Positions 5,094 through 27,233 of a stretch of DNA of 64,000 nt are shown piece after piece. Source of the stretch: Thermocrinis albus DSM 14484 (GTDB lineage Bacteria > Aquificota > Aquificia > Aquificales > Aquificaceae); assembly GCF_000025605.1 (NCBI RefSeq), contig NC_013894.1, positions 233,529 to 297,528 of the forward strand, given 5' to 3'. The position numbers were made by a program, and so were the translations under genes. The notes under the pieces are model-generated. The model searched no databases, was not told where the DNA came from, and worked only from the letters and a program-made list of their open reading frames with translations. Numbering within the stretch: the first letter of the stretch is position 1; each line of letters begins with the position of its first letter.

Positions 5094-6714
5094 TTATCTC
5101 CTCCTTTACTTCCTCTCTGCGGGTAGCCCACGGAGGTTTAGGAAACCTTACCATGAGAGGTGTAGGTATGTCGGGTTGATGCAGTATCATACTACCCTTC
5201 TTAAGGAGAAGAGCTCTCTGCCGGAAGTTACCCATCAAAAACTCGTACTCTTTACTTAGAACCTCGCTACTGTCCAGTCTACCTACCACCTTTATGGCAG
5301 AGTTGGCCAGGACCCTTTTCTCTATCTCGCTGGCAGTCTGCTGGGCACCTATCAGTATAACACCCAAGCTCCTACCCCTCTCCGCTATGTCCAGTATAAC
5401 ATCCTTTATGGGACTCCATCCGTCCCTTGGCGCATATTTATTAAGCTCGTCCAAAACTACAAACACCTTAGGCTCGGGTGTGGATCTGCTTTCTTTCTCC
5501 TCAAAGAGTCTCTTGAGGACCGCACCCACTACGAACATCTGGGCTATGTGATGGAGGCCACTTATGTCAATGACACTCACCTTGGAGGACTCCCAGTCTA
5601 TGGGACTAGATACCGTTCCCCTTACGAACCGCCCTATGTGCATGCTGGCTCTTGAAAAACGCCTTAGGAAAGCTCTGGCCGTCTGTAAAGAGGAATCACC
5701 GAACCATTCTCTGTAAATATCTTTGTTGCCCTTCTCAGATTCCTCTATGGCTTCTTTGAGAAGCTCCTCCAGTTTCTGGAGGGAGTCTATTTCTCTACCG
5801 TAAGAATCCGTAAGAACACCTAAACTTTTGGACCTTTGGGCCCGAATGTGAAGTTGGGTAGCTATCTTCTCCACCACATAAGGGACTTGAGATTTACCTT
5901 CCTCTTCCTCTGCAAACATGAAGCGGATAAGACCGTTTTCGGCAAAATCCAGCATACTCCAGTAGAAAGGTGTTACCCTATCATCGTAGCGTTCACAGTC
6001 AGGTTTGTAGGGATCGTTTTTGTGGGGAGGAACATAGAACCTCACGTCTGAGAAAGGTTCAGGCTCGAATCCCATCTTTCTGAGGGCATCTTCGTCTTCC
6101 GGTGATAGGTTCTTGTTCCTCTTATCTATCCACAGCAGGTCTTTACCTTTCACGTTAAAGATAATACCGTGCTTTCTTATATCACTTCCCTTCTTGAGAA
6201 CAGAGTAGAGAAGAAAGAGGGCATAAGAGGTCTTGGTAGCAACACCTGACATACCCGATATACTCACATGAGCTCCTTCAACACCGTTTAAAAAGTGATA
6301 GTTGAGGTACACTATCTGTCCATTACGCGTAAGCCCAGCGGGTATGCGTACCTTCATCTGGTCATAGTAGAGGGCTCTCTCCAGTTCTTCGCCTTCTGCC
6401 AGATAAACGGGATCACCTGGCTGTGGGGGTACAAAGAACTCGGGTTCTACACGCGTCACACTCACCTTGGCCACGTAAGCCACGTTGGCAGGACAAGCTC
6501 CCTCCCGAAAAAGTCTGTCCTCGTAAACCATGCTGGGTCCTTCCAAAAACTTCTGCACTTCCTGTATAATCCCGTAGAACTTAACCTCTTTATCACCAAG
6601 ATCTGTTACCGCGTACACCACTTGGTCCAACTCTATGACTCTTCCCTCGTCCACCCCTATCCAGAACTCCAGAGGTGAGATAGGTCTTGTCCCCAGTACC
6701 AGTCCTATCTGCAT
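5065..6714 (-). CDS. HerA-like ATPase with HAS-barrel domain
   Basis: Hexameric FtsK/HerA-class ATPase, probably a DNA translocase. The N-terminal 130 residues look like a HAS barrel (starts MQIGLVLGTRPISPLEFW). The P-loop is non-standard: GMSGVATKTS, with T in place of the usual G before the lysine; I recall the same variant in other DUF87-type proteins. Walker B is FVVLDELNKY. An ATG at 6750 exists, but the one at 6714 is preferred: it lies four bases past the hemC stop, has TATACT 8 bases upstream, and begins with the domain's conserved residues (549 aa). No NurA nuclease is adjacent, so a role in end resection is not supported by context; hemC and amiC are its neighbours. Confidence 0.75.
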   Translation of the reverse strand: MQIGLVLGTRPISPLEFWIGVDEGRVIELDQVVYAVTDLGDKEVKFYGIIQEVQKFLEGPSMVYEDRLFREGACPANVAYVAKVSVTRVEPEFFVPPQPGDPVYLAEGEELERALYYDQMKVRIPAGLTRNGQIVYLNYHFLNGVEGAHVSISGMSGVATKTSYALFLLYSVLKKGSDIRKHGIIFNVKGKDLLWIDKRNKNLSPEDEDALRKMGFEPEPFSDVRFYVPPHKNDPYKPDCERYDDRVTPFYWSMLDFAENGLIRFMFAEEEEGKSQVPYVVEKIATQLHIRAQRSKSLGVLTDSYGREIDSLQKLEELLKEAIEESEKGNKDIYREWFGDSSLQTARAFLRRFSRASMHIGRFVRGTVSSPIDWESSKVSVIDISGLHHIAQMFVVGAVLKRLFEEKESRSTPEPKVFVVLDELNKYAPRDGWSPIKDVILDIAERGRSLGVILIGAQQTASEIEKRVLANSAIKVVGRLDSSEVLSKEYEFLMGNFRQRALLLKKGSMILHQPDIPTPLMVRFPKPPWATRREEVKEEISVPEEFGNF

Positions 6715-16842: not shown

Positions 16843-17183
16843 TCTGCTTTTGTTGGTACATCACCAAACTTTCCTACCCTGCTAACCATAACACTACTTA
16901 CAAACACAACACCTGAATGCTTATTAAGGAAAGGAGTAATACCTTCAAGCACAGCTTCAACAAGATTCTCTGGCATTACTGAAATGACCATTACAAGAGT
17001 GTCCTCTTCATTAAACAGAAGGTGGCCTTCGTGAAAACCGTGACTTCCTTTTCCAGACAGGTTATGTATTATGGTGTAGCCAGTGGCACCAGCTCTGTCC
17101 AATAGATCCAAAACAAAGTCTAAGTCCTCACCTCTAACGATTATTTCCACCTTCTTCATCTCATAGAGTTTTACACTTTTCAT
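16830..17183 (-). CDS. PII-like regulatory protein of the dab operon
   Basis: 117 residues with a ferredoxin-like PII fold pattern: KKVEIIVRGEDLDFVLDLLD, then GATGYTIIHNLSGKGSHG, then a core strand VMVISVMPENLVEAVL and a C-terminal VVFVSSVMVSR. The T-loop region is short compared with GlnB/GlnK and lacks the uridylylated tyrosine context, so it belongs with the PII-like proteins linked to carbon uptake (CPII/SbtB type) rather than nitrogen PII. The ATG overlaps the dabA stop by four bases (ATGA) after a GAGGTGAAAG site. Likely role: gating DabAB in response to a nucleotide or bicarbonate signal; this is inferred from the neighbours and known relatives. Confidence 0.75.
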   Translation of the reverse strand: MKSVKLYEMKKVEIIVRGEDLDFVLDLLDRAGATGYTIIHNLSGKGSHGFHEGHLLFNEEDTLVMVISVMPENLVEAVLEGITPFLNKHSGVVFVSSVMVSRVGKFGDVPTKADGGT

Positions 17184-20179
17184 GCTTTCACCTCCTCTTT
17201 TTTGAAGTATTCAACCCAAACACCTTCTAAGTACCTATAAAAGATTTCCTTCTCCGGATCAAAGATAAGGAGATTTATCCAGCCGTTTTGCATAAGATCC
17301 CTTATCTTTCTTATTTTGTTGATGGCATTCCTTGCTAACTCAAAGGGGGCTTCTACGATGAGGGTGTATCTTATGGGTATGTGGAAAGGTTTACCCTCTT
17401 TTAGTACTGTTTGGGCAGGTAAACCTGTTCTCAAGTCACTGTAATTACCTGTCATTACGCCTATCCTTCCCACCACGTTATGGTAGACCTTGCTTCCACT
17501 ACCGTAGACTTCGTTGTCCACTGTGGAGAAGTAGTATTCCGAATTTATCCACTGACCTACTACCGCAGGACCTGCGAGTATATTTTCCAGCAGAAACCCT
17601 TTTTTATCAACACGGTAGTCGTAAGAGTGTAAGAACACTCTACCGTCTAAATTGGCCAGTTTTGTTATGCTTCTCCTCCCTATGATGAAGGCGTAGTTTC
17701 CAGAAAGACCCCATTCGGGTCTGACCTCTGACCAATCGTAAGCCTTCTTGTACACATCCTGAGTGTTCTTTGTATCCAAAGTTTTAGCTCTTTCCTGAAG
17801 GGTAAGGTCCTTAGCTACTTGAAGGTCTTGGATTATTTTGTCAATCAGCGGAATGTATTCTGCAGGTAAAAACTCAAGATCATAGAGGAATACTTCATCT
17901 GTAGTAGTGTTATGAACTCCTGGTATGAATACTGTATATGGCGGTATCTCCAATCCGTACCTTTGAGCCATTATCTGCCTTACCACGTGATCATTGGCCA
18001 TAATGCAGAATATCCTTGCGTTATAGATGCCAGAAGCACCACCACAAGCGCCACAGTCTAAAGCAGACTCATAGGGGTTGTTTTCGGACCTACTTTCGTG
18101 CCCTAGCACCAACACTATTGGGGCGAACTCTTTGGTTAAACCTATGCTTTTAAGAGCTGTGGATATAAGGAAGGCCTGCTCTTCCTTTGTGAAACCTACA
18201 CTTTTTAACCTTTCTCTGAAAAGTTCTACATAACCACGCTCCACTTTGTATTTCTCTCTCAAAAGTTCAACTACTTCCTTAAGGTTTTCGGAAAGAGTGT
18301 TTCCACCATTCAAGCAGGCTTCGTACACCTGATTCACCATCTCATCGTTGATAGTTTGCATTCCAAAGCGTTCTCGTAATACGGTTCTTATGAGGGTAGA
18401 ATAGTAGGATTGTATTATCTGCTGTATTTCTTCATCAGAAAGCTTGTTCACTATCAGGGACGTTTTTGTGTAATCTTTAAAAGCTAAATCCTTAAACCTA
18501 AGATACTTCTCCGGCAGAAAGGTCTTTCCCAAGAAATCAAAGCCAAAGGCAAATCCCAACATTTCTACCGCCACAAAGGGTGCCAATACGTGATCTTTCA
18601 CGCTATGGAAGATATGACTTGCTACTCTTTCCTTTTCTACTCCTCTTTTGTTGTAGGGTACTTCAAAAACCACATTCCTGGGAGTTACTATTACGGGACA
18701 AAGGAACTCTTCGTGTCCCTTTTGCAGATTCACCATAGCAACAGGCACACCGAAGAAACCGGCTATACCGTAAGTTTGATATCTACCTAAGCTTTCGAGA
18801 TGTCTCCTGAAACGCTCGGAGCGTACATCTATACAGAAAAACGCCTGAGCTAGTGGTCTTTCTTGTGTCTCCTCTTGGGGTGCTCTTATGAGCTTTACAA
18901 GCTTATCTATGTGTGTATCCTCAAGAGCTCTGAGGTATATGTATCCCTCCTCTTCTTTGAACTTTTCGTATACTTTCATGAGCTCAAGAAGGTGATCTGC
19001 GGTGAGACTGTTTATGTCTATACCTACTTTTCTCGTCCAGTTGGTTAAAAACAGGTAGTAGCTCAAGGCTAAAATTTCTGCCTTTGCTCTTACATATTCC
19101 TCTACTTTTTCGTGAGGCTTTTTGAGGTAATCCTTCATACGGTCCCAAAGCTGTGGTGGGCACCTTTTGGTGCCAAGTTCGTACAAAAGATAAGCTCTGG
19201 CACGCTCTTTGTTTAAAAACTCCTCTAACGCTCTGTAGGTGGGTTCAAAAGGAAGACCCTTTTTGTGGGCATCTATTACCGCCTTTGCTATCAAAAGTCT
19301 TATGGCTGTGTAATCTACCATGTCAACAGGGTGAACTTTTTGCCAGTAATAGAACTTGTTGTGAGAGCGCCACTTTATAAAACCTGCTATACCTTTCAGG
19401 CGTGCAAGTTCAAGACTTATGTATCCTTCCCAAAGGGCTTGGGGTAGTTCAAAAGACGTCAGCACATACTCTATAGCAGGTTCAGGCTCTTGGAAAGCCT
19501 CTACCATATCTTTTAGGCTCTTTCCTGCCCATAAGAAAAATCTTAGATTCCTTTTGGCTAACTCTCTCCAAGCCTTGTAAAAACCAGCACCTCTGCCAGG
19601 CATATCTATAGTAGACTGTCCCTCGTCCAGGAAATCAAAAGCTGTCTTTATGGTAAGTTCATCTATGGTTTGAGAAAGGTTTTTACCTGTCAAAAGTTCT
19701 ATAATGTCCTGTAGAGTATGCTTCAGACCTATGGAAAGTAAAATATCTCTGCAAACTTGAGCAGGGTCTTCTGTAAAGTGTTCCATAAGGGCGTTTAGAA
19801 TTTTCTCGTCAACTTTCCCTTTGTACAGATCATTTAAAGCAGGCTCTTTTATGTTATCGACAAAAAGAGTAAAAAGTAGTTCTTCGTAAGGAAGCTCCAG
19901 TTTGAGCTCCATAGAAGAAAGAAATTTTCTTATACCCTCCCTTAGAAATTCATCCTTCATGTAGCCTTTGGAGTAGAGGTACCTGTAGTCTTCTCTTCTA
20001 AGATAACCTCTGCCACCAAACAAAAGCTCACCCTCTTTGAGGGCATCCTTAAAGGGTTTGTCTTCCAATCCTCTTAGGGGATTGCGGGTTATGAAAGTCC
20101 TCATAGGCCAGAAGTAAGCTATGGGTTCAGCGGCCATATTTACAAGGGACCTTATGTATAGCTTTCTTCCTTTCTCCAT
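17180..20179 (-). CDS. dabA: Inorganic carbon transporter subunit DabA (DUF2309)
   Basis: Cytoplasmic zinc subunit of the DAB complex, which with DabB uses an ion gradient to drive one-way hydration of CO2 to bicarbonate (beta-carbonic-anhydrase-like site). Expected ligands are visible: CIDVRSE (Cys and Asp, about residue 446), LGHESRSENN (His, about 693) and LDCGACGG (Cys, about 707); also AYFWPMRTFITRNPL at the start, typical of the family. Start at ATG 20179 is set by a GGAGG site and a 4-base gap after dabB; a frame running to 20269 overlaps dabB and is rejected. 999 residues, normal for DabA. Middle gene of dabB-dabA-PII. Confidence 0.92.
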   Translation of the reverse strand: MEKGRKLYIRSLVNMAAEPIAYFWPMRTFITRNPLRGLEDKPFKDALKEGELLFGGRGYLRREDYRYLYSKGYMKDEFLREGIRKFLSSMELKLELPYEELLFTLFVDNIKEPALNDLYKGKVDEKILNALMEHFTEDPAQVCRDILLSIGLKHTLQDIIELLTGKNLSQTIDELTIKTAFDFLDEGQSTIDMPGRGAGFYKAWRELAKRNLRFFLWAGKSLKDMVEAFQEPEPAIEYVLTSFELPQALWEGYISLELARLKGIAGFIKWRSHNKFYYWQKVHPVDMVDYTAIRLLIAKAVIDAHKKGLPFEPTYRALEEFLNKERARAYLLYELGTKRCPPQLWDRMKDYLKKPHEKVEEYVRAKAEILALSYYLFLTNWTRKVGIDINSLTADHLLELMKVYEKFKEEEGYIYLRALEDTHIDKLVKLIRAPQEETQERPLAQAFFCIDVRSERFRRHLESLGRYQTYGIAGFFGVPVAMVNLQKGHEEFLCPVIVTPRNVVFEVPYNKRGVEKERVASHIFHSVKDHVLAPFVAVEMLGFAFGFDFLGKTFLPEKYLRFKDLAFKDYTKTSLIVNKLSDEEIQQIIQSYYSTLIRTVLRERFGMQTINDEMVNQVYEACLNGGNTLSENLKEVVELLREKYKVERGYVELFRERLKSVGFTKEEQAFLISTALKSIGLTKEFAPIVLVLGHESRSENNPYESALDCGACGGASGIYNARIFCIMANDHVVRQIMAQRYGLEIPPYTVFIPGVHNTTTDEVFLYDLEFLPAEYIPLIDKIIQDLQVAKDLTLQERAKTLDTKNTQDVYKKAYDWSEVRPEWGLSGNYAFIIGRRSITKLANLDGRVFLHSYDYRVDKKGFLLENILAGPAVVGQWINSEYYFSTVDNEVYGSGSKVYHNVVGRIGVMTGNYSDLRTGLPAQTVLKEGKPFHIPIRYTLIVEAPFELARNAINKIRKIRDLMQNGWINLLIFDPEKEIFYRYLEGVWVEYFKKEEVKA

Positions 20180-24973: not shown

Positions 24974-26005
24974 ATGGCGGTTAAAGATATAATGGATGCT
25001 CTCAGAAAGGAGCATGTGGATAACACCCCACTATCCGAGTTGGTGAAAGACATAAAACTGGTGGGAAGCACCTTAGAAATAGTTTTTCGTTTGCCTCAGA
25101 AACACTTGGAGGAAGAGATAAGAAGGAAGACGGTACAAGCCTTGGAATCGGTACCTGATGTGGAAAAGGTGAACGTGAGGTTCGTGGAGGGGCCACCCGC
25201 TCAGTTCTTACAGGCACCAGTCTTTCAGCGTAGAAAAGTGCAAGGGGTTAAGCATCTCATAGCGGTAGGTAGTGGTAAAGGTGGTGTGGGTAAGTCCACC
25301 GTGGCTGTGAACTTGGCGCTGGCTCTGTCACGTTTGGGGGCCAGAACGGGTCTTTTGGATGCGGACATATACGGTCCCAGTGTACCTACCATGTTGGGTC
25401 TGAAGGGTCAGAGGGTTTACGTAAACGATCAGAACAAGATAATACCTCTGGAGAAGTTTGGCCTGAAGACCCTCTCCATAGGTTTCCTCCTTCCTTCGGA
25501 GGACACACCCGTCATATGGCGTGGTCCTATGCTTATGAAGGCCCTCACCCAGTTCCTCTTTGATGTGGAGTGGGGAGAACTGGACGTTCTTGTACTGGAT
25601 CTTCCACCCGGCACAGGTGACGTACAGCTTACGCTGGCTCAGAACGTGGATATGTCGGGTGCCATCATCGTTACCACACCCCAGGACGTGGCTCTGGCAG
25701 ACGTAAGGAAGGCCACTTCCATGTTCAAAGAGGTAGGCATTCCCGTACTGGGAGTCATAGAAAACATGGCCTACTTTGTGTGCCCTGAATCCGGTAAGAA
25801 GTACTACATATTCGGTAAAGGGAAGGTTCTGGAGTTCGCTCAGGCTTACGGTCTTAAAATACTGGGGTCCATACCCATAGATCCTCAGGTGGCGGAAGGT
25901 TCCGATCTGGGACTTCCCATAGTGGAAGCGTATCCCCATTCAGAGGTGGCTCAGGCTTTCTTAGGCATAGCCAGGTTAGTTTTGGAAGAACTAAATAGGA
26001 GGTAG
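24974..26005 (+). CDS. apbC: Mrp/ApbC family Fe-S cluster carrier ATPase
   Basis: P-loop ATPase that carries and inserts [4Fe-4S] clusters. An N-terminal MIP18-type domain (about 1-75) precedes a deviant Walker A GSGKGGVGKST (about 98-108) and VLDLPPGTGDVQLTLAQ. The cluster-binding CPxC motif reads CPES (C270, S273), so the second cysteine is missing. Start has a GGAGGAG site six bases upstream. 343 residues, normal. Followed five bases later by the NifS-like gene, which suggests a shared Fe-S role. Confidence 0.9.
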   Translation: MAVKDIMDALRKEHVDNTPLSELVKDIKLVGSTLEIVFRLPQKHLEEEIRRKTVQALESVPDVEKVNVRFVEGPPAQFLQAPVFQRRKVQGVKHLIAVGSGKGGVGKSTVAVNLALALSRLGARTGLLDADIYGPSVPTMLGLKGQRVYVNDQNKIIPLEKFGLKTLSIGFLLPSEDTPVIWRGPMLMKALTQFLFDVEWGELDVLVLDLPPGTGDVQLTLAQNVDMSGAIIVTTPQDVALADVRKATSMFKEVGIPVLGVIENMAYFVCPESGKKYYIFGKGKVLEFAQAYGLKILGSIPIDPQVAEGSDLGLPIVEAYPHSEVAQAFLGIARLVLEELNRR

Positions 26006-26009
26006 TAGC

Positions 26010-27233
26010 ATGTTTTTGCAGAAGGCAGGTAAAAGAGTCGTTTATCTGGATCACATAGCCACCACGCCGGTGGCTCAGGAAGTTATAGAGGCTATGTTAC
26101 CCTACTTTAGGGAACGCTTTGGAAACCCCACATCTCTTCACAGCTTTGGACAGGTGGCCAAGAAGGCTATCAACGAAGCGAGGGAGAAGATAGCCTCCCT
26201 CATAAAAGCAGGATCTCCTGAAGAGATCATCTTCACCTCCGGTGGTATAGAGGCCAACAACTTAGCCATAAAAGGTATATCCAAAGCTTACGAGAAAAGG
26301 GGAAGGCACATAGTATCCACCGAGATAGAACACCACTCCATACTACATCCTCTGAAGACGTTAGAGCGTGAAGGTTGGGAAGTCACCTACCTTAAACCCG
26401 ACAAGTATGGTCTTATTGACCCTGATCAGGTAAGGGAGGCGGTAAGAGAAGACACGGTGCTGGTAAGTATAGGACACTCCAACAGGGAGATAGGAACCAT
26501 TCAAAACATAAAGGAGCTGGTGAAAGCTGCTAAAGAGAAGAACCCCCGTGTCATATTCCACACGGACGCGTGTCCTACTCTCGGACATTACCCGGTGGAT
26601 CTTCAGGAATGGGGCGTGGACGCAGCTTCCTTTACCGCTCACCTTATGTACGGTCCCAAAGGTGTGGGAGCTCTATGGACCAGAAAGGGTGTTAAGATAA
26701 GACCCTTGATAGAGGGGGGAACTCAGGAGAGGGGTGTGAGGGCAGGTACAGAAAACGTGCCGGGTATAGTGGGTTTTGGTGCCGCGGCAGAGCTCACCAT
26801 GAAGGAACTGGATGACAGAATGAAGCGCCTTTCTTACTACAGAGACAAACTAAAAAAGGCTTTGGAAGAAAAACTGGACTACATCGAGTTTACAGGACAC
26901 CCCACCCAGCGACTGCCCCACCATCTTTCTCTTATCGTGCATCTCATAGAAGGTGAGGCCATGCTGCTGAGACTGGATCTCATGGGTATAGAAACCGCTT
27001 CGGGTTCAGCCTGCGTATCTTTGGCCCTCAAACAGTCACACGTTCTCTTTGCCATAGGTGTTCCCAAAGAGGTAGCCAACGGATCTTTGGTGTTCAGCTT
27101 CGGTAGAGACAACACGGAGGAAGACGTAGACTATGTGATAGAGGAGTTTCCCAAAACGGTGAAACTCTTGAGGGAGCTCTCACCCTTCACACCGGAAAAC
27201 TGGGAGCAGTACGTTAAGGGCAAAAAAGGTTAA
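26010..27233 (+). CDS. Cysteine desulfurase homologue lacking the PLP lysine
   Basis: NifS/IscS-type fold I protein (407 aa): YLDHIATTPV start, TEIEHHSIL with the PLP-stacking His, FHTDA (D186), and the mobile sulfur-carrying cysteine C335 in SGSACVSLALKQSHVL. But the lysine that binds PLP is replaced: family SAHK-x-YGPKG reads TAHLMYGPKG, Leu at 212 (codon CTT). DA-V-Q after D186 reads DACP, so the Gln that contacts PLP is also lost. It probably cannot act as a normal desulfurase. It could be a cluster scaffold or binding partner, as reported for an Archaeoglobus IscS without this lysine. An AGGAGGT site overlaps the mrp stop, so the two are co-translated. Confidence 0.85.
   Translation: MFLQKAGKRVVYLDHIATTPVAQEVIEAMLPYFRERFGNPTSLHSFGQVAKKAINEAREKIASLIKAGSPEEIIFTSGGIEANNLAIKGISKAYEKRGRHIVSTEIEHHSILHPLKTLEREGWEVTYLKPDKYGLIDPDQVREAVREDTVLVSIGHSNREIGTIQNIKELVKAAKEKNPRVIFHTDACPTLGHYPVDLQEWGVDAASFTAHLMYGPKGVGALWTRKGVKIRPLIEGGTQERGVRAGTENVPGIVGFGAAAELTMKELDDRMKRLSYYRDKLKKALEEKLDYIEFTGHPTQRLPHHLSLIVHLIEGEAMLLRLDLMGIETASGSACVSLALKQSHVLFAIGVPKEVANGSLVFSFGRDNTEEDVDYVIEEFPKTVKLLRELSPFTPENWEQYVKGKKG

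Follow-up and report, generated by a model that had tools for sequence, protein, structure and literature searches.

IscS is commonly presented as the supplier of sulfur to IscU. Escherichia coli IscS is an active PLP enzyme that touches IscU through residues Glu309 to Ala316, Glu347 and the C-terminal helix (PMC2854127), and its mutants at Q183 and K206 (Q183E, K206A) have no activity (PMC9978102). H2S feeds IscU in E. coli that lacks iscS (PMC13015791). The IscS of Archaeoglobus fulgidus works with IscU and has no desulfurase activity (PMC7585200). In the A. fulgidus complex, according to those parts of PMC7585200 that cite Marinoni 2012 and Pagnier 2014, the IscS cysteine ligates the cluster on IscU. 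The sequences of this protein (4EB5, 4EB7, 4HVK) have lost the equivalents of the PLP lysine (K to D), the PLP-contacting glutamine (Q to A) and Arg354 (R to L), while the cysteine is kept. Methanosarcina acetivorans IscS1 is also reported to be without the lysine and has an IscU1 partner gene (PMC7585200). The minimal SmsCB/SufBC system assembles Fe-S clusters from sulfide without a cysteine desulfurase (PMC12192291).

Here we describe a lysine-less IscS/NifS homologue ("pseudo-IscS") of Thermocrinis albus. The window, the whole stretch of 64,000 nucleotides that was analysed, comprises bases 233529-297528 of a complete genome of 1,500,577 bp. Positions below are those of the window:

24974..26005, + strand: mrp/apbC, P-loop Fe-S carrier ATPase (PF10609), separated from the pseudo-IscS gene by 4 nt
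25997..26002, + strand: ribosome-binding site AGGAGG, just inside the end of mrp
26010..27233, + strand: pseudo-IscS, 407 aa; NifS/IscS models match over the full length, below equivalog cut-offs

The protein is homologous to IscS/NifS from end to end, with scores of 478.6 bits for TIGR03402 and 386.7 bits for TIGR02006, both under the respective equivalog cut-offs of 530.75 and 643.2. Its PF00266 score is 275 bits. An earlier note on this DNA, made from sequence, had placed Mrp next to the gene, as is indeed the case; mrp immediately precedes the gene in 48 of 49 distinct loci. This kind of protein is already known from Archaeoglobus, and an Aquifex-type orthologue has already been studied structurally.

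The cofactor pocket and the contact surfaces

The T. albus protein was aligned to E. coli IscS (PDB chain 1p3w), and L212, P189 and C335 correspond to K206, Q183 and C328. The positions that matter are as follows:

26247..26249, + strand: Ile80 for the PLP-site Thr (E. coli T76), by alignment
26484..26486, + strand: Arg159 for the pocket Asn (N155), by alignment
26574..26576, + strand: Pro189 (CCT) for the PLP-contacting Gln (Q183), by alignment and codon
26634..26636, + strand: Thr209 for the PLP-site Ser (S203), by alignment
26643..26645, + strand: Leu212 (CTT) for the PLP Schiff-base Lys (K206), by alignment and codon
26949..26972, + strand: EGEAMLLR, residues 314-321, the helix that matches the alpha-8 IscU contact of E. 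coli IscS, by alignment
26988..27053, + strand: Cys335 loop, residues 327-348, with conservation above the protein-wide average
27012..27014, + strand: Cys335 (TGC), the sulfur-transfer or ligand cysteine (C328), invariant in 49/49 orthologues
27090..27092, + strand: Val361 for the pocket/substrate Arg (R354), by alignment

The earlier note had read Leu212 at the lysine, Pro189 at the glutamine and a retained Cys335 with its loop, and all of these readings hold. It understated how far the pocket has gone, since the Asn, both hydroxyl residues and the Arg listed above are replaced too. T76, N155, Q183, S203, K206 and R354 are 93-100% conserved in 44 lysine-bearing homologues, and the canonical residue stands at none of the six in any of the 49 aligned orthologues. 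All 49 have I, R, P/A, T and V at T76, N155, Q183, S203 and R354. The lysine position is Leu in 42/42 aligned Aquificaceae rows, which answers the call for an alignment of Aquificales homologues, and Tyr in 7/7 rows of a second, Hydrogenothermaceae-like family. One further, partial orthologue (L064) has Phe. A single-base error is ruled out because CTT is three changes away from AAA or AAG. With six pocket positions changed together, the proposal that the fold and the cysteine were preserved and cofactor chemistry was not is borne out, and members of this group are probably misannotated as "cysteine desulfurase".

H104, D180, H205 and C328 (E. coli numbering) are unchanged in 49/49 aligned orthologues. 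Retention of the first three is not required by a pure loss of the site and counts against a desulfurase-dead reading. It would suit a protein that is still a PLP enzyme, one that holds PLP non-covalently and uses another base for the chemistry, and E. coli IscS K206A still binds some PLP (PMC9978102). We consider such an enzyme highly improbable: the pocket Lys, Gln, Asn, Thr, Ser and Arg are all replaced, the Lys by Leu or Tyr, and the E. coli K206A and Q183E mutants are inactive (PMC9978102). The depositors of the structures described next, moreover, reverted up to nine positions of an orthologue.

Seven PDB sequences (9WFY, 9WFE, 9WFB, 9WF8, 9WEW, 9WER and 9WEP) are orthologues of the T. 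albus protein. 9WFY has the wild-type residues of an Aquifex-type orthologue, and an Aquificales-type IscU is also a chain of this entry. The Aquifex-type protein comes from another species; it is a full-length orthologue with the same Leu212, Pro189, Arg159, Ile80, Thr209, Val361 and Cys335. The substitutions of the other entries, read from alignments, are cumulative in the order given here. 9WFE has R159N and L212K, 9WFB adds V361R, 9WF8 adds P189Q, 9WEW adds I80T, 9WER adds I16A, and 9WEP adds G155M, a change of position 188 to Val, and T209S. From these variants and 9WFY it follows that others have seen that the pocket is degenerate, attempted its repair and obtained crystals of the wild type together with IscU. 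A search of a literature library found no publication on the 9WFY-series entries or on an Aquifex desulfurase.

The surfaces around the pocket have fared differently from the E. coli pocket residues. In the orthologues, the fraction of invariant sites is 0.68 in the Cys335 loop vs 0.40 in the whole protein (hypergeometric P = 0.006). The IscU contacts E309-G310-E311, E347, L380, R381, S384, P385 and W387 are invariant in the orthologues that reach these positions. The residues with which E. coli IscS contacts TusA (W45, E49 and D52) have been lost. Pseudo-IscS thus shares with E. coli IscS the fold family, the Cys loop and the IscU-contact residues, and differs from it in the six pocket residues and the TusA contacts. 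Compared with A. fulgidus IscS, to which it is about 44% identical, it lacks the equivalents of Thr76 and Asn155, which the archaeal protein keeps, and has no Asp in place of the Lys. The earlier note was right to name an Archaeoglobus IscS without the lysine as a precedent, as 4EB5 has Asp there (PMC7585200). In a maximum-likelihood tree, a 100/100 branch sets all lysine-less proteins of Aquificota apart from the homologues that have the lysine. At the base of the latter stands A. fulgidus IscS, weakly supported (82/38) and with thin archaeal sampling, a placement compatible with a common lysine-less origin as well as with separate losses.

Pairwise dN/dS is about 0.03 where dS could be estimated; dS is saturated, so this value is an indication, and no more, of strong purifying selection on the gene. 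A decaying pseudogene or a sequencing error, to which the loss of catalytic residues could be attributed, was considered and ruled out, and we give it practically no chance. The frames are open over their full length, the mrp neighbour is conserved, and the same changes occur in 49 orthologues from independent assemblies at this low dN/dS.

Distribution with IscU and the search for another desulfurase

The distribution was examined in 92 genomes of the phylum that are at least 90% complete; 69 belong to the two gene-carrying families and 23 to others. The counts are of related genomes and not of independent events. Pseudo-IscS was found in 67 of the 69 Aquificaceae and Hydrogenothermaceae-like genomes (missed in G053 and G066), IscU was found in 67 (missed in G047 and G053, 91-92% complete), and SufB/D was found in none of them, T. 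albus included. The remaining 23 genomes, which are Hydrogenobaculum-like (f2) or class-level relatives (f4/f5), all have SufB/SmsB, and neither IscU nor pseudo-IscS was detected in any of the 23. Across the phylum, then, the lysine-less protein is present or absent together with IscU, and the pattern amounts to a single switch, or a few, between ISC and SmsB/SufB systems. SUF as the real system of T. albus was ruled out by the absence of SufBD from T. albus and from all 69 genomes. SmsCB/SufBC, which replaces ISC in other Aquificota, is like the ISC system proposed here in having no cysteine desulfurase, but its scaffold is unrelated to IscU. In the Hydrogenobaculum-like genomes the replacement is a SufC-SufB/SmsB pair (L126:2361-4087 (+)). 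Its SmsB-like protein scores far under the SmsB cut-off, and those genomes gave no TusA match. G066 is a 99% complete draft in which IscU is present and no pseudo-IscS was detected, through either a gap between contigs or a true loss.

In T. albus, iscU lies remote from the pseudo-IscS gene, at 917621-918082 (-). In most genomes of the second family, iscU follows the pseudo-IscS gene directly or lies within about 3 kb of it. In Aquificales, IscU has one additional conserved cysteine ahead of its assembly site (GQCGNPxCGD, 14/14 sequences; L109:4922-5383 (-) and other iscU loci), and the next PDB relative shown has Val at this position.

The earlier note had asked for a second, normal IscS or SufS elsewhere in the genome. 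A PF00266 search found no lysine-bearing NifS/IscS/SufS in T. albus. Besides pseudo-IscS, the matches are a second lysine-less NifS-like protein in the nif cluster (L002, L110), an AGXT-like aminotransferase that has its lysine, and unrelated fold-type-I enzymes (aminotransferases, glycine dehydrogenase and a KBL/BioF-like synthase). The cysteine desulfidase CyuA is absent from 7/7 genomes tested, T. albus among them. A protein search, which elsewhere finds lysine-bearing copies at E ~1e-55 or better, shows the pseudo-IscS orthologue alone in about 30 near-complete relatives. M. acetivorans differs from T. albus in having an active IscS2 as well.

About half of the orthologue-bearing genomes hold a second desulfurase, mostly lysine-bearing, so these organisms can draw sulfur from cysteine. 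Nine of the closely examined genomes have such a lysine-bearing copy, and pseudo-IscS could in principle be its regulatory or heterodimer partner. This is very unlikely, as the lysine-bearing copies are only about 36% identical and none exists in T. albus or the roughly 30 near-complete relatives; for T. albus itself the absent partner refutes it. In G039 the lysine-bearing second desulfurase is split into two frames and pseudo-IscS is intact (L120, about 5290-6470 (+)).

Role of the protein and source of sulfur

Very probably, pseudo-IscS is an IscS that has lost its catalysis and is retained as a partner for IscU, in an ISC system that does not depend on cysteine. This reading draws on the loss of the pocket as a set, the retention of the Cys335 loop and the IscU contacts, and co-inheritance with IscU. 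A role as IscU partner is strongly indicated, also because the wild-type orthologue and IscU share the crystal entry 9WFY. The second desulfurases in about half of the genomes, and the presence of IscU without an orthologue in G066, count against the desulfurase-dead reading. The earlier note had favoured a cluster scaffold or a cysteine-ligand donor over sulfur release. An assembly role fits the tracking of IscU, the invariant contacts and 9WFY; the scaffold itself is IscU, which is encoded elsewhere, so pseudo-IscS is more likely a docking partner of IscU or a donor of a cysteine ligand. A part in sulfur transfer is possible too, as Cys335 could relay sulfane sulfur.

The mechanism that we propose runs as follows. 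Sequence shows that the PLP and substrate pocket was dismantled as a set, with the Cys335 loop and the IscU-contact residues conserved, and distribution shows that the gene is inherited with IscU and that SmsB/SufB takes the place of both elsewhere in the phylum. A pseudo-IscS dimer may dock two IscU molecules, and the docked Cys335 may swing over to the assembly site of IscU, to act there as a ligand (as in A. fulgidus) or to carry a persulfide. Sulfur would come from sulfide or from TusA-borne sulfane sulfur, and the finished cluster would pass on, perhaps through Mrp.

The source of the sulfur is split about evenly between sulfide and TusA-borne sulfur. It is quite possible that assembly is fed by sulfide and that Cys335 is purely a cluster ligand, as proposed for A. 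fulgidus, whose complex has the IscS cysteine in this role (PMC7585200, in the parts citing Marinoni 2012 and Pagnier 2014). Sulfide also supplies IscU in E. coli lacking iscS, as well as SmsCB (PMC13015791, PMC12192291), and neither a cysteine desulfurase nor CyuA was found in the T. albus genome. T. albus is microaerophilic, however, so free sulfide may be scarcer for it than for A. fulgidus, and the adjacency of tusA points to sulfane sulfur. The genes are ordered iscU, ThiI/MnmA-like, tusA. All 15 of the orthologue-bearing genomes that were tested have tusA some 1.6 kb after iscU, and the three Hydrogenobaculum-like genomes tested lack tusA. This adjacency, together with a sulfur-using lifestyle, makes sulfane sulfur an equal candidate to sulfide.

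A persulfide relay is accordingly a possible form of the same best explanation, though we hold it tentatively. Cys335 would be charged by TusA, a rhodanese or polysulfide and would pass the sulfur to IscU, which would make the protein a PLP-free sulfurtransferase. Apart from the position of tusA, this fits the growth of T. albus, which is best with hydrogen and sulfur (PMC3035279), and the two rhodanese matches in its genome. Against it stand the lost E. coli-type TusA contacts, the ligand role of the A. fulgidus precedent, and the chance that TusA really serves the neighbouring ThiI/MnmA-like gene. The product of that gene has an NFACT-R_2 domain (L109:3885-4925 (-), L122:7136-8203 (+)) and falls short of the curated NCBIfam thresholds for ThiI and MnmA.

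If pseudo-IscS is a dead partner of IscU, then at least two bacterial families retain an IscS that has given up its chemistry, and T. albus and some 30 relatives showed no other cysteine desulfurase. The docking or cysteine-ligand role of IscS would then be separable from sulfur supply, which bears on Fe-S assembly without cysteine desulfurases. The thermostable pseudo-IscS/IscU pair, with its deposited structures, offers a test system. Worth following are the mutual exclusion with SmsCB across the phylum, the missing alternative desulfurase and the lysine-less NifS of the nif cluster.

The NifS-like protein of the nif cluster

In T. albus, the second NifS-like protein is encoded at L110:8527-9648 (-), which is G000:C1:409526-410647, and nif-linked copies are also present in L119, L129, L130 and L131. 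The lysine position of these proteins is Phe or Ser (Tyr in L131), and the cysteine is kept. The order of the T. albus cluster is two P-II, NifB, NifW, NifZ, NifV-like, the lysine-less NifS-like protein, AOR, NifA-like, NifH, NifD and a split NifK, where the names of the second P-II and of the NifA-like protein were read from sequence only. NifH scores over its cut-off in five Aquificaceae genomes (G000, G023, G062, G063 and G064), and these same five, and no others, have a nif-linked copy without the lysine, placed between AOR and NifV.

There is close to an even chance that Aquificaceae run both ISC and a nitrogenase (NIF) cluster without a cysteine desulfurase. IscS and the nif-linked NifS would both be dead docking or relay proteins, with sulfur arriving as sulfide or as TusA-borne sulfane sulfur. 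If true, a microaerophilic bacterium could assemble Fe-S clusters and FeMo-cofactor without the cysteine-based route. Related Hydrogenobacter isolates have been shown to fix nitrogen; T. albus and H. thermophilus TK-6 have not (PMC6307999). The nifK of T. albus stands in two overlapping frames (L110:16229-16987 and 16980-17882 (+)) that match PF00148 positions 1-137 and 145-398; the split may be a frameshift, a sequencing error or recoding.
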